Below the pieces are notes generated by a model, which was given only the letters and a program-made list of their open reading frames with translations, was not told the DNA's origin and ran no database searches. Position numbers and translations under genes: made by a program. A DNA stretch of 64,000 nucleotides, from assembly GCA_022652545.1 (NCBI GenBank), contig JALCRM010000001.1:124001-188000 (forward strand), written 5' to 3'. This document shows, in pieces, positions 54,786 to 60,407 of this stretch; position 1 is the first letter of the stretch; the number at the start of each line of letters is the position of its first letter. The DNA is from Lachnospiraceae bacterium (GTDB lineage Bacteria > Bacillota > Clostridia > Lachnospirales > Lachnospiraceae).

Positions 54786-55018
54786 AGGAAAGAACGGAAC
54801 GCCGTGTGCGGGACGGAGAACGGTTTCATTATACTAAATCGGGTCTCTGTTTTCCATCCGCGCCGGGAAGGAATATCCGGCCGGCACAGACCGGAAAAGA
54901 AAAGTTACGGCTGCCGGGGCTCCCAAATATGGTATTTTTATGAGTTGCAGGCACAAGCCTCAGATGTTAAACTGATGGGCGACGGTGCATTAACGGCTTG
55001 AAAAACAAGGAGGCAGCG

Positions 55019-56269
55019 ATGTATTCATTGGATGAGGTGAGGAAGGAAGACCCCGAGATCGCGCAGGCTATTGCGGACGAGATCGGACGGCAGAATGACC
55101 ATATCGAACTGATCGCATCGGAAAACTGGGTGTCCAAGGCAGTCATGGCGGCCATGGGCAGTCCGCTGACAAACAAGTATGCAGAAGGCTATCCCGGACA
55201 CCGTTATTACGGCGGCTGCCAGTTTGTGGATGTTGTGGAAGACCTGGCCCGTGAACGTGCAAAAAAACTGTTCAACTGCGAATATGTCAATGTACAGCCC
55301 CACTCCGGCGCACAGGCCAATCTGGCCGTGGAATACGCCGTTCTCCAGCCGGGTGACACGCTGATGGGTATGGATCTCAGCCAGGGCGGTCACCTTTCCC
55401 ACGGCAGCCCGGCAAATATTTCCGGCTCCTATTTTCATGTTGTGCCCTACGGCGTGGACGCCAACGGCTTCATCGATTATGACAAGCTGAGGGAACTCGC
55501 TATGGAAGCGCAGCCGAAGATGATCATTGCGGGTGCATCCGCGTATGCCCGTACGATCGACTTCGGAAAATTCCGCGAGATCGCAGATGCCTGCGGCGCA
55601 GTCCTTATGGCAGACATCGCCCATATTGCCGGTCTGGTGGCTACGGGGCTGCATCCGAGCCCGATCGGCGTGGCAGACATTGTCACGACCACGACGCACA
55701 AGACGCTGCGCGGACCGCGAGGCGGCATGATCATGGCCAACCAGGACGCCGCAGACCGTTTCAAACTGAACAAGGCTATTTTCCCCGGTACGCAGGGCGG
55801 TCCTCTCGAGCATGTCATTGCAGGCAAGGCAGTCTGCTTCAGGGAAGATCTGCAGCCGGAGTTTGCAGTGTACCAGAAGCAGATCCTCAAAAATGCGCAG
55901 GCACTCTGCAAGGGACTGCAGAAACGCGGCATTTCGATCGTTTCAGGAGGCACGGACAACCATCTGATGCTGCTCGATCTGACGAACTTCGATCTCACGG
56001 GCAAAGAAGTGGAAAAGTGGCTGGACGATGCCCACATCACCGCAAATAAAAATACGATCCCCAATGAACAGAGGAGTCCTTTCGTTACGTCAGGCATCCG
56101 TCTCGGTACACCCGCAGTCACGACACGCGGCCTGAAGGAAGACGATATGGACCGCGTTGCGGAAGCCATATCTCTTGTTATCACAAAGAAGGAAGCCGGT
56201 GTCCCGGAGGCACAGGAGATCGTAAAAGGCCTGACGGCGAAATATCCGCTGGACAGTTTCCTGGAATAA
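55019..56269 (+). CDS. glyA: Serine hydroxymethyltransferase
   Basis: [67 protein letters not shown]. Confidence 0.97.
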
Positions 56270-56318
56270 GGTGAGAGGCTGCTCCGGATCAGGTCTGCTG
56301 CAGTCAGGTGATCTTGGC

Positions 56319-58187
56319 ATGCGTCTTTTCCAAAACACAATCGGCAGGTTTGAAAAGCTGTCGGACCGGTGCATCTGTGTGATCATGTATTTTACACAGC
56401 TGGTCCTGCAGCTTATTCCTGTTGCTTTCATGAAATATCCCATTCTTTCGGATGAGTACGCAACTCTGGCGGAAGGCGTTTTCCTGAACAACGGGAAAAA
56501 CTGGGCACTGACACTGCATGCTGCCGGTTTTGACAGATATTACGGATACGGCTATGCGGCATTCACCTGCCTGGCTTATCACTTTACGCAGGACATGCGG
56601 GTCATCTATCTGCTGACTCTGTGCTGCAATGCGGTCCTGGTCTCTTTTATCCCGCTTATCTGCTACCGGATCGCCGGGCATTTCCTGCTCCTGCCAAAAA
56701 AGGAAGCGTGCACTGCGGCTGTTCTGACCGGCATGTATCCGGCTTACTGGGTGCTTACAAAGTACGCGATCAATGAGTCTCCGCTTTACCTGCTTGTATG
56801 GGTCATCCTGCTGCTTCTGCTGGAGATCCGGGAAACGGGCAGCCTGCGGAAGCAATGTGCATACAGCGCACTGACAGGCCTTCTCTGTATCTATTCCTAC
56901 ACCGTACACGGCCGCGGGCTGGCGCTGATCGCAACGGGTGCACTGGTACTCGTCATCATACTGTCCGCAAAAGGGCATATGGCGAAGCGTGTACCTGCCC
57001 TGTTGTGCTATCTGCTTGTCGTACTGGCAGGCTACGCCGTACATGACGGTATCCTGCACCATCTTGCAGCTGACCTTTTTGGCAAGAAAATTACGGAACT
57101 TTACAACACCTTTGCCAACTATGTGGCGAACTTTGAACTGCCTCCCGTGACGCCGGGAGCAGTGGGCCGCGTTTTTGCGGCGGCAGGGGGCATGTGTTTC
57201 TATATGGTCTGTGCCACGTACGGACTTTTTCTGCTGTTTTTGATCGTTTTGTTCAGGAAACGCCGGGAGATGTTCAGGATAGCAAGGGCCTCCGAGGAAG
57301 AGCAGCCCGAACTTGTGATGTACTGGTATATTCTTATACTGTCCGTTGTCACGGTCGGCCTTACCCTGCTGTCCTTTCTTCTGATGTACATGAAAGACCG
57401 GGTGTATTCCGGAGAGTTCTGGTTTTACGGGAGATACTGCGAAGTGTTCTGCGGACTTCCGGTATTTGCCGGTCTGGTGCTATTACTCCGTGGGAAAGAC
57501 ACCTTCCGGAAAGGCGATACGGCAGCAGTTGCTGTGATGACCGGCATCCCCTCTGTACTGATGCTTGCTTATACAGGACCCAAGATTCTTTCCATGAAGC
57601 GGAAGTATATCAGCTATTCCATGACGACCGGGGCTATGCCGTTCGGAGGTTTTCAGGCAGGGGAAGATCCCGCATACGGCAATTTTATTGCACTTGTGGC
57701 CTTTACGGCGGGGCTGGCGATCCTTGTCTGGGCTCTGGTCTTCCGGAATAAAAAGAAGATACTGTGCGTTCTGCTGGCGGCTCTTTCCGTTTACTCTTCA
57801 CTGTATTCCTGGAATCGCTTTGTGTACCGGGCCAGCAGCGAATACTATGAATATTCCGCATTCCTGGACAGGTACGGGCGGGAGGAAAAAGAACTGGGCG
57901 CGGAGTATCCGCGCGTGTATGTCCTGAATTCGAAGACCCCCAGACTGCGGATCAAGTTTGCACTGGCAGACTGGGATGTGATCTATACGACAGACAGGAG
58001 TGAGGTCAGGGAGAACAGCATCGTTGTATGCGACAGGCAGACCGATCTCGGAAAGAAATTCCGTTACATCCGCAAAGTCAATACGGGCAATGCCGGGAAT
58101 GAGCAGGACTATGTCTGGGTTTACGGCCGCGAACTGATCGGGCAGTTTAAAAACAGGGGGTATGAGCTCTACAATGTGAAAAAGTGA
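56319..58187 (+). CDS. Polytopic membrane glycosyltransferase-like protein (GT39-like)
   Basis: AFMKYPILSDEYATLAEGVFLNNGKNWALTLHAAGFDRYYGYGYAAF; paralog of 42043-44736 N-terminal half; alternative GTG start 56271. Confidence 0.68.
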   Translation: MRLFQNTIGRFEKLSDRCICVIMYFTQLVLQLIPVAFMKYPILSDEYATLAEGVFLNNGKNWALTLHAAGFDRYYGYGYAAFTCLAYHFTQDMRVIYLLTLCCNAVLVSFIPLICYRIAGHFLLLPKKEACTAAVLTGMYPAYWVLTKYAINESPLYLLVWVILLLLLEIRETGSLRKQCAYSALTGLLCIYSYTVHGRGLALIATGALVLVIILSAKGHMAKRVPALLCYLLVVLAGYAVHDGILHHLAADLFGKKITELYNTFANYVANFELPPVTPGAVGRVFAAAGGMCFYMVCATYGLFLLFLIVLFRKRREMFRIARASEEEQPELVMYWYILILSVVTVGLTLLSFLLMYMKDRVYSGEFWFYGRYCEVFCGLPVFAGLVLLLRGKDTFRKGDTAAVAVMTGIPSVLMLAYTGPKILSMKRKYISYSMTTGAMPFGGFQAGEDPAYGNFIALVAFTAGLAILVWALVFRNKKKILCVLLAALSVYSSLYSWNRFVYRASSEYYEYSAFLDRYGREEKELGAEYPRVYVLNSKTPRLRIKFALADWDVIYTTDRSEVRENSIVVCDRQTDLGKKFRYIRKVNTGNAGNEQDYVWVYGRELIGQFKNRGYELYNVKK

Positions 58188-58224: not shown

Positions 58225-58296
58225 ATACAGGCAATTTGCATATATTTAGCGAAAATACAGACAATTTAGATATTATAAGAAAAATTATTGACAATT
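58225..58296 (+). repeat. 30-bp-spaced direct repeats upstream of the ncRNA promoter
   Basis: ATACAGRCAATTT at 58225 and 58255 (22/30 identity between 30-mers); GRCAATT core at 58230, 58260 and 58290, the last overlapping the -35. Confidence 0.8.
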
Positions 58297-58316
58297 ATCG
58301 AGCCGCAGGCTATTAT
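58288..58316 (+). promoter_or_regulatory. Strong sigma-A-type promoter TTGACA-N17-TATTAT
   Basis: Perfect -35, 17-bp spacer, 5/6 -10. Confidence 0.85.
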
Positions 58317-58322
58317 CTAGTT

Positions 58323-58780
58323 AAAGAAAGGTCAGTGGAATTCCTGAAGAGGAAACCAAAGGACTGACGAAGCGACTCGCAGGTCGCAACCAAAGAGGAA
58401 AGGAAGGTACACTCCGCCGGCACACAGAATGTTCCAAAGCATTATAACAAAGGTTCAGTCAACAGATCGTTATTCTGACTCAAAGACGTGATGAAGATCG
58501 TGACCGGATCGTCTGAAAAGCAGCAGGGACTGAAGATCGAGGAAGCGAGTTCAATGGGATCTCTGAGGAGATCACCGGGATGAGGACCTTCCGAAAGATG
58601 AACAGTCGGAGCTCCGCCACAGCGGTACCGCGTCAGACATCACAAGTACATAACGTACAAAGGTAAATGAGGCTGAATGACGAGAAGAAAAACGGAGGTG
58701 CACTCCATTGGAAAGTGAGTCCTTGGAAGCAGTAAAGTAGGAGGCCATTGCGACGAGAAAGCAATGGCCTCCTGCTTTTA
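58323..58780 (+). ncRNA. Large structured non-coding RNA, family not identified
   Basis: ORF-free region; promoter directly upstream; hairpins GCGAC/GTCGC (58372-58387), GATCTC-TGAG-GAGATC (58558-58573), CCGC-CACA-GCGG (58614-58625), GTAC/GTAC (58646-58658); ends in a strong intrinsic terminator. Confidence 0.8.
58739..58780 (+). terminator. Intrinsic terminator of the ncRNA
   Basis: AGGAGGCCATTGC-GACGAGAAA-GCAATGGCCTCCT-GCTTTTA, 13-bp perfect stem. Confidence 0.92.
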
Positions 58781-58883
58781 CTGTGGGGCTTTTGTAGTGG
58801 GACGCAGCGGATTATGCTATATTATGTTCAACAGAAGGCGCCGCTGCTGACATTCGGGCCGCCTGACCTGCGGAGGTTCTCAG

Positions 58884-60407
58884 ATGACCAGGTTCTTTTC
58901 CGGAATATCGGAACGCTTATCGCTGCACCGGCTTGCAGCTGCTGCAATTCTGTTCCTTGTCCTGTCTCTGTGCCCCATTCTGTGGATCTCTTTTTACGGA
59001 TACGCATCCGGTGACGATCTCGGATACGGTTTCTACGTAAAGCACGTCCTGGAGGAAGGCGGAACGCTGCTCCAGGTGCTGTCTTCCGTATGCGGCGAGA
59101 TCCGCAATGCCCGCATCAGCTGGCAGGGCACCTGGTCATCGATCTTTCTGTTCTGCTTCGAACCGAGCGTTTTCGGGGAACGCTTTTATACGCTGGTTCC
59201 CTGGATCGCAGTCTTTTTCTTTCTGGCCGGAACAGGCGCATTCCTGCATACAGTCCTGGTCAGGCATGCCGGGATGGGCAAAGATGCGTTTGCAGTCCTC
59301 TTCTCGTCGCTTGCTGTTTTTTCTCTCCAGTATCTTCCTTACATGCGCGGAGGGATCTTCTGGTACACTTCGGTCGTTCACTATACCGTGCCCTATGGAG
59401 TGGCGCTGCTTTGTCTGTCGGCGGCATACGGCTGTCTTTATAAAGACAGGAAAATGGTACCGCTGTGCATCGGCGCCGCCTACCTGGGAGGCGCAGGGTA
59501 TCCGCCCATAGTACTGCTGGCGGAAGGCCTGTTCTTCCTTATCCTCTACGGACTTTACAAGGCTTCGCACGGCATGGCGGAAATGCGGACGCGTGCGCTC
59601 CGGCTCCTTCTTCCTCTTGCGCTGCTGCTCACCGGGTTTGCAGTGAGCGCTACCGCACCCGGCAACCGCGTACGCGGAGGCAGCGGCTTCGGACTGAATG
59701 CCGGAAGTCTCCTGAAGACACTGACGGGGTCAGCCGCGGAAGGGATCACCGGGAGCCTTTGCGAGTTCCGGAGAGTGCCGGTCCTGTTTTTCCTTGTCAT
59801 CATGATCGTTTTTGTGACAGTGCGCGATGCGGAAAACTGTGAAAGTGACCGCAGGACCGGTCCGATGCAGCCGGCTGTTGCCACGGTGCTGTGTTATCTT
59901 TGCACCGCCGGCGTCTATGCACCGGGCATTTTTGCGGGGACATCCGTATCGGGCGGACTGCCCGATACGGTGTGGTTCGTATTTCTCCTTATGCTCACAG
60001 TATGGCTTGCTTCCGTGACGAGGTGGCTGGTTGCGCGGGGAGATCTGAAAGGCCGGCTGCCGGCCGCCGTCAGGGTCCCGGCGGTATTCGTTTCGCTTGC
60101 GGTCTGTCTGCTGTTTGCAGGAAGAGTGACAGCCGGCAGCGTGGATGCCGTCTGCGTACGCTTTGCGGCCAGCGGGGAACTGGCCGATTATTCGGCGCAG
60201 ATGAAGGAAAGGATCGCACTTCTGACTGACCCTTCCGCAGAGGACGTGACGGTACCGGAGATGAATGACCAGCAGGGGCCTTTCATGTGCATGCCGCTGG
60301 TGCGCGATACCGAAAATTTCGTAAATAAAAGCACGGCTGCCTTTTACGGTAAAAATTCCGTGACAGCCGTGCCGAGAGACGAATATGAAAAGCAGAATCA
60401 CAGTTAA
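58884..60407 (+). CDS. Polytopic membrane protein (DUF6056-like)
   Basis: ISFYGYASGDDLGYGFYVKHVLEEGGTLLQVLSSV...SWQGTWSSIFLFCFEPSVFGERFY; many TMs. Confidence 0.7.
   Translation: MTRFFSGISERLSLHRLAAAAILFLVLSLCPILWISFYGYASGDDLGYGFYVKHVLEEGGTLLQVLSSVCGEIRNARISWQGTWSSIFLFCFEPSVFGERFYTLVPWIAVFFFLAGTGAFLHTVLVRHAGMGKDAFAVLFSSLAVFSLQYLPYMRGGIFWYTSVVHYTVPYGVALLCLSAAYGCLYKDRKMVPLCIGAAYLGGAGYPPIVLLAEGLFFLILYGLYKASHGMAEMRTRALRLLLPLALLLTGFAVSATAPGNRVRGGSGFGLNAGSLLKTLTGSAAEGITGSLCEFRRVPVLFFLVIMIVFVTVRDAENCESDRRTGPMQPAVATVLCYLCTAGVYAPGIFAGTSVSGGLPDTVWFVFLLMLTVWLASVTRWLVARGDLKGRLPAAVRVPAVFVSLAVCLLFAGRVTAGSVDAVCVRFAASGELADYSAQMKERIALLTDPSAEDVTVPEMNDQQGPFMCMPLVRDTENFVNKSTAAFYGKNSVTAVPRDEYEKQNHS

Follow-up and report, generated by a model that had tools for sequence, protein, structure and literature searches.

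Stand-alone RNAs of the CsrB/RsmZ type, which serve as sponges, carry a repeated short G-rich binding motif. Other small RNAs are connected with the ribosome itself. In Staphylococcus, SprF1 contains a purine-rich stretch resembling a Shine-Dalgarno (SD) sequence, which has been proposed to act on the ribosome, and it lowers mRNA loading (PMC8938821). Minigenes, or mini-ORFs, described for axe-txe and for the LEE4 and ler leaders, are composed of a strong SD, a start codon, few codons and a stop, two to six codons in all, and ribosomes bound at a mini-ORF reportedly protect the transcript (PMC8708949). In vitro, the 16S rRNA of 30S subunits is protected against RNase R by an SD oligonucleotide (PMC10901742). 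OLE RNA, a ~600 nt RNA of the Bacillota, contains an SD/anti-SD mimic that binds the ribosomal protein bS21 (PMC12054373).

The locus described here was found in a Lachnospiraceae genome, in a stretch of 64,000 nucleotides that is referred to as the window. It is predicted from sequence to be a free-standing, intergenic transcription unit with its own promoter and terminator. We propose, at a rough probability of 0.45, that it belongs to a previously undescribed RNA gene family of the Lachnospiraceae whose transcript engages ribosomes and docks 30S subunits on non-productive sites.

The RNA gene and its relatives in the same genus

The features of the locus are listed in Table 1. The original prediction of an orphan, stand-alone RNA gene holds: the promoter it named was confirmed, and the gene is conserved and falls into no Rfam family. 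The terminator stem, which had been put at 13 bp, measures 18 bp once A/U base pairs are counted. Both of the similar GGTRCACTCC motifs that had been noticed exist, the second at 58697 and the first beginning at 58406 rather than 58407. As claimed, the + strand of the body lacks any ORF of at least 60 aa, but this overlooks the TTG-initiated ORF of 10 codons, which is conserved in relatives. The letters of a proposed GTCAG...CTGAC pairing are present (58331-58335 and 58364-58368), but the pairing is absent from the minimum-energy fold.

Table 1. Positions of the RNA gene, its parts and its neighbours in the window
Feature	Position	Strand	Remarks
Transcription unit	58323-58780		promoter and terminator, predicted from sequence
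Sigma-70-type promoter TTGACA-N17-TATTAT	58288-58316	+	11/12 consensus bases; transcription start expected ~58323
5' (start-less) module AGGAAAGGAAGGTACACTCCGCCG	58396-58419	+	own-genus conservation; module model 58397-58419, 10.3 bits
Variable body between modules	58420-58690	+	
GTGATG facing CATCAC	58488-58493 / 58638-58643		in body
Hairpin GTAC/GTAC	58646-58649 / 58655-58658		in body; compensatory changes in relatives
3' (start-bearing) module AACGGAGGTGCACTCCATTG	58691-58710	+	module model 58685-58717, 18.6 bits, top match in window
Tiny ORF TTG GAA AGT GAG TCC TTG GAA GCA GTA AAG TAG (MESESLEAVK*)	58708-58740	+	stop at terminator base
Intrinsic terminator, stem AAAGTAGGAGGCCATTGC / GCAATGGCCTCCTGCTTT, loop GACGAGAAA, T-rich tail	58734-58784	+	18-bp stem
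glyA	54998-56269		wider flank
638-aa ORF	56271-58187		immediate flank; no Pfam family
DUF6056 gene	58884-60407	+	immediate flank

The 5' module of the window consists of an SD-like stretch, which departs from the perfect SD as GGAAGG, followed by a conserved spacer and by CCG at the position of the start codon. In the 3' module this position is occupied by TTG, which opens the tiny ORF. A module model ranks the two motifs first and second across the 64-kb window, with the qualification that one of its 40 training sequences, which come mostly from other genera, is the window's own 3' module. The RNA gene is present as a single copy in its genome. The other match to the model in this genome, AAGGAGGTATAATCCAATGAAAACAGTTAAGATC (G000 contig 3, 138806-138830 (-), locus L231), resembles, judged by reading, the beginning of an HPr (ptsH) gene; the extended ribosome-binding site may thus be shared by one or more ordinary genes.

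Comparison by blastn with 60 genomes of the same genus returned short patches only, mostly at the two GGTRCACTCC motifs, and the true homologs hold both motifs in order. In these, the 5' part is composed of the promoter, RGAAAGGAAGGTACRSTCC-ACC-GGAA and a variable body, and the 3' part of ACATCACA-GTAC-N5-GTAC, GGAGG-N4-8-CC-ATT-GGAC, a very short ORF that begins with TTG or GTG, and the terminator. The body between the motifs ranges from ~45 nt to >400 nt, and the minimal relatives (L017-L020, L060), ~145-150 nt long, contain almost only the two motifs. Locus L044 (G040 contig 27, ~4140 and ~5000) has the complete gene twice in tandem, at a distance of ~0.9 kb; the tiny ORFs of the two copies differ slightly (MDSEY and MDNEY).

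Wherever the flanks are present in these genomes, the RNA gene lies between glyA and a convergent CoA-enzyme activase gene, as it does in the window, where the latter encodes 1154 aa. The 638-aa ORF and the DUF6056 gene are usually absent from this interval in the relatives, and the window locus therefore appears to have acquired genes on both sides of the RNA. The neighbourhood also bears on whether the RNA is a leader-peptide attenuator, in which a ribosome translating the tiny ORF as far as the stop would disable the terminator, so that transcription would continue into a downstream gene. The stop codon at the base of the terminator fits such a device, but no regulated gene is conserved on the same strand downstream: the DUF6056 gene that follows in the window is not conserved there, downstream genes differ between genera, and in own-genus relatives an attenuator would have nothing to read into because the next gene is convergent. 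An attenuator is thus very improbable.

The window RNA folds better than 100 shuffles (z = -6.2), to which the terminator contributes part. Within the genus, compensatory changes are seen in the hairpin GUAC-N5-GUAC, which also occurs as GUUC/GAAC and AUAC/GUAU, and in GGUGA-CGAGAAGN-UCACC; in the GUGAUG/CAUCAC pairing, a single compensatory change was seen (L055), and L053 and L057 have A-C mismatches. RNAalifold gave no consensus fold for the 5' core. The sequence GACGAGAA recurs as a hairpin loop in the window (58679-58687 and 58752-58760), in the terminators of L008, L046 and L075 and in the 5' hairpins of L003, L005 and L021, and this loop may be a separate recognition element. The two modules of the window RNA are predicted to pair strongly with each other, which could mask the second SD. 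As a general mechanism, such pairing was rejected, since it is absent in most relatives (mean 0.76 pairs).

An architecture like that of the large ornate RNAs ROOL, GOLLD and OLE had been suggested for the locus, and the low folding energy and the two short hairpins with compensatory changes would suit a purely structural non-coding RNA in which the ORF is incidental. What relatives conserve is not a fixed ornate fold, however, because they retain the two motifs around a body that is conserved neither in length nor in sequence; minimal relatives such as L017 and L060 are almost nothing but two modules, and the frame of the ORF is strongly conserved. A covariance scan of the whole window against Rfam 15 gave no match at the gathering score, be it to ROOL, GOLLD, OLE or raiA, and permissive filters gave chance-level hits only. 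The models of RNase P, tmRNA, 6S and SRP RNA found no match in the window either, in keeping with the absence of RNase P and tmRNA features that had been reported from reading. Scans of ten relative loci gave nothing but a tRNA, with two deeper scans at chance level. We therefore consider it scarcely credible that the RNA is purely structural. A search of the open-access literature on non-coding RNA of the Lachnospiraceae, tandem ribosome-binding sites, decoy SD sequences and RNA motifs of gut genera found no description of this RNA, and the class is new relative to Rfam 15 and the literature searched.

Tandem modules across the Lachnospiraceae

With a model of the 5' motif (R1), relatives were detected in further Lachnospiraceae genera, frequently as paired matches ~50 nt apart. 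These relatives repeat GGAGGTAYRGWCCACCRGA in tandem and then have a single copy with ATTG or AATG. The two-copy pattern is present in at least 120 stretches of GTDB species genomes, nearly all from Lachnospiraceae; among the matches listed are Roseburia, Blautia, Anaerostipes, Pseudobutyrivibrio, Butyrivibrio, Anaerobutyricum, Coprococcus comes, Eubacterium ramulus, Lachnoclostridium, Diplocloster, rumen lineages and a few other Clostridia. Of 298 genera of the family, 21 contain the strict two-module pattern; none of 400 genomes drawn across the phylum does, and the reversed pattern, used as a control, had no matches. Module model R3 (42 positions, 40 training sequences, E <= 0.01) matches 164 of the 298 genera, compared with ~4 of 196 genomes outside the family, which is near chance. 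Pattern matches in Clostridium punense (L113) and Flavobacterium (L168) were set aside as chance. A phage or mobile element was rejected, since none of the viral contigs searched had the two-module pattern and the chromosomal locus is syntenic within the genus. Three genomes (G015, G789, G896) have eight to ten module-model matches each, so some species may hold several or very long arrays.

Each module is composed of a strong SD and a conserved spacer, GGAGGUACRGWCCA, followed by a codon position. Across the family, one to eight upstream modules are followed by one NTG module with an ORF of 5-16 codons. The upstream modules have CCA, CCG, AAG, ACA or ATC at the codon position, or else ATG with an ORF of 2-3 codons, and the last module of an array mostly has ATG or TTG. 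Among 364 modules, the triplet is ATG in 97, CCA in 96, AAG in 59, TTG and CCG in 27 each, ATC in 21 and ACA in 19, with few others. Spacing between modules clusters at ~51-72 nt (median 55), which is not a multiple of three. The modules as parts of one long ORF (RRYSPPE-like) were rejected, since indels in the spacers break the frame and a spacing of 100/89/66 is not a multiple of three. The 5' modules often deviate from the perfect SD, a point against 30S docking. A promoter of the sigma-70 type, with up to 2 mismatches allowed and no more than 250 nt between it and the first module, precedes 101 of 110 arrays and is found in 7% of control windows.

Within the 60 nt examined after each module, an in-frame stop occurs in 358 of the 364, at the fourth triplet in 219, and the other two frames show nothing comparable in stop placement. 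ATG-type upstream modules yield MK*, MR*, MA* and MKT*. After start-less modules, a UAA mostly stands at a fixed distance, with the A at +12 as the best conserved base of the triplet (82%); it may serve as an RNA motif and not as a codon, and the window's own 5' module lacks it. In some lineages (L149, L104, L183), ATG stands in a large share or almost all of the upstream modules, which then encode two or three codons each (MG*, MGR*, MK*, MR*) and so form tandem minigenes. The architecture, the repetition of the module, its position after a promoter, the frame of the ORF and the family-wide spread are all demonstrated by computation, and the anatomy of the RNA gene family is well supported.

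Predicted 16S pairing and the terminal ORF

The 16S rRNA of the family ends with GGCUGGAUCACCUCCUUUCUA in all seven complete genomes. Against UGGAUCACCUCCUUUCU, two helices are predicted for the module, AAAGGAGGU with ACCUCCUUU and CCA with UGG. The mean predicted duplex energy is -16.8 kcal/mol, compared with -13.2 kcal/mol when the nine spacer bases are shuffled, so that the conserved spacer adds 3.6 kcal/mol, and 98% of modules pair better than their own spacer shuffles. For ordinary genes, the median is -7.8 kcal/mol and 3% reach the median module, a rough comparison because their starts are simple first-ATG calls. Computation thus supports a two-part pairing of the modules with the 16S 3' end that would be far stronger than at ordinary ribosome-binding sites. 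The UGG lies at the foot of helix 45, which the second helix would therefore have to open. Pairing does not explain every conserved base, because A, which does not pair, is nearly as frequent as U at spacer position W. On average, the SD positions are predicted to be nearly as accessible as the other positions of the RNA (unpaired 0.45-0.47 vs 0.50).

Conservation spans ~30 nt (GAAAAGGAGGUACRGWCCANNNRRAANNUAA), more than SD pairing requires, and the copy number of the arrays varies, as it does in sponges. Both would be expected if the module were bound by some other partner, an RNA-binding protein or a C-rich small RNA, which the array would soak up. This is unlikely in view of the conserved spacer, which does increase 16S pairing, and of the start codons, which stand with an ORF on the last copy and, as ATG, on upstream copies of several lineages.

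The terminal ORF was analysed in 114 NTG modules with a terminator behind them, and its peptides in 99 ORFs. The first in-frame stop ends -2 to +7 nt from the base of the terminator stem in 85 of the 114, whereas the same test on the other two frames gives 12 and 6; these counts take no account of kinship among the sequences. The RNA is stand-alone, as had been claimed, but probably not purely non-coding, because the last motif provides the ribosome-binding site of a tiny ORF, whose end coincides with the terminator in the great majority of relatives. Half of the peptides (50/99) are pentapeptides, and the second position is Asp in 73 and Glu in 6. A helix GUCC/GGAC around the start codon was dismissed as the cause of this Asp, since, by reading, modules with GACC keep the partner unchanged. 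Loci from the module model, which were not selected for an ORF, independently repeat the order of start-less modules followed by MDxxx*, with MDSIV, MDHEI, MDAIV, MDSIQ, MDNSM and MDNMF as their peptides.

These regularities raise the question of whether the RNA is chiefly an mRNA for a functional micro-peptide of 5-16 aa, similar to MDSIV or MDEIV, with the upstream modules as standby or decoy sites that tune ribosome loading. The ORF is in frame and ends at the terminator, Asp predominates at the second position, and MDSIV (16) and MDEIV (7) recur with different codons. Nearest-neighbour codon changes are synonymous in 15 cases and non-synonymous in 19, where 17% synonymous would be expected, a count that ignores kinship and transition bias; the excess is a weak sign of selection on the peptide. 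The peptides are too short for any known domain, however, and vary widely in length and sequence (MDKNH, MGSNFRGGIS, MVLDFKSEQK, MESESLEAVK), and the separate, strong conservation of the upstream modules would be needless for such an mRNA. A micro-peptide as the main product is therefore regarded as doubtful.

Proposed function and comparison with known systems

The function that we infer for the family starts from the start-less upstream modules, which would hold 30S subunits in non-productive complexes. By this means, the RNA would titrate, store or sense free 30S subunits, and at the terminal start-stop ORF a ribosome would load and leave at the 3' end, thereby reporting on or resetting the complex, while the peptide itself may matter little. 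The full account, which we offer tentatively and at less than even odds, is that of a new class of bacterial RNA whose mostly start-less tandem 30S-docking arrays capture subunits through two-part 16S pairing and tune or sense the translation capacity of Lachnospiraceae, with the mini-ORF at the terminator as an exit or sensor.

A related role would be the storage or protection of ribosomes. Idle 30S subunits would have their 16S 3' end covered by SD-type pairing and so kept from RNase R, or else the RNA would be guarded against nucleases by the ribosomes bound to it. An SD oligonucleotide does shield 16S rRNA from RNase R in vitro (PMC10901742), and binding to a strong SD at a six-codon mini-ORF is described as sufficient to stabilise a leader against RNase E (PMC8708949). 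This role, which would call for an RNA made at the right time and in amounts sufficient for many ribosomes, is considered improbable. Lachnospiraceae are among the commonest gut bacteria of humans and ruminants, and the RNA gene is found in over half of the genera sampled. If the modules hold 30S subunits, the RNA would be a counterpart of ribosome hibernation and titration factors, as well as a natural case of ribosome-binding sites retained without start codons.

The precedents of SprF1, minigenes, RNase R protection and OLE indicate by analogy that such a role is possible, and none of them establishes membership. CsrB/RsmZ sponges are similar in that a short G-rich motif is repeated in a stand-alone RNA, but the CsrA motif is GGA in hairpin loops, whereas here an SD is joined to UACRGWCCA and codons, in positions predicted to be, on average, about as unpaired as the remainder of the RNA. 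OLE is likewise an RNA of the Bacillota with an SD/anti-SD mimic (PMC12054373), but there is no sequence or covariance match between the two, and the OLE fold is fixed and ornate, unlike that of the present family. The nearest functional precedent is SprF1, with other ribosome-associated ncRNAs (rancRNAs), in which an SD-like purine-rich stretch is also carried by a small RNA (PMC8938821); SprF1, a type I antitoxin, has a single stretch of this kind, while the Lachnospiraceae RNA, whose ribosome binding is predicted, combines tandem modules, each with its fixed spacer and codon position, with an ORF at the end. The nearest coding precedent is the minigene, since the terminal modules combine a strong SD and a start with a stop after few codons (5-16), and the window ORF, with its 10 codons, exceeds the classical length of two to six. 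Known minigenes occur singly, in the leaders of longer genes, whereas here up to eight modules, most of them start-less, stand in tandem in a stand-alone RNA between promoter and terminator, with a convergent next gene in own-genus relatives.
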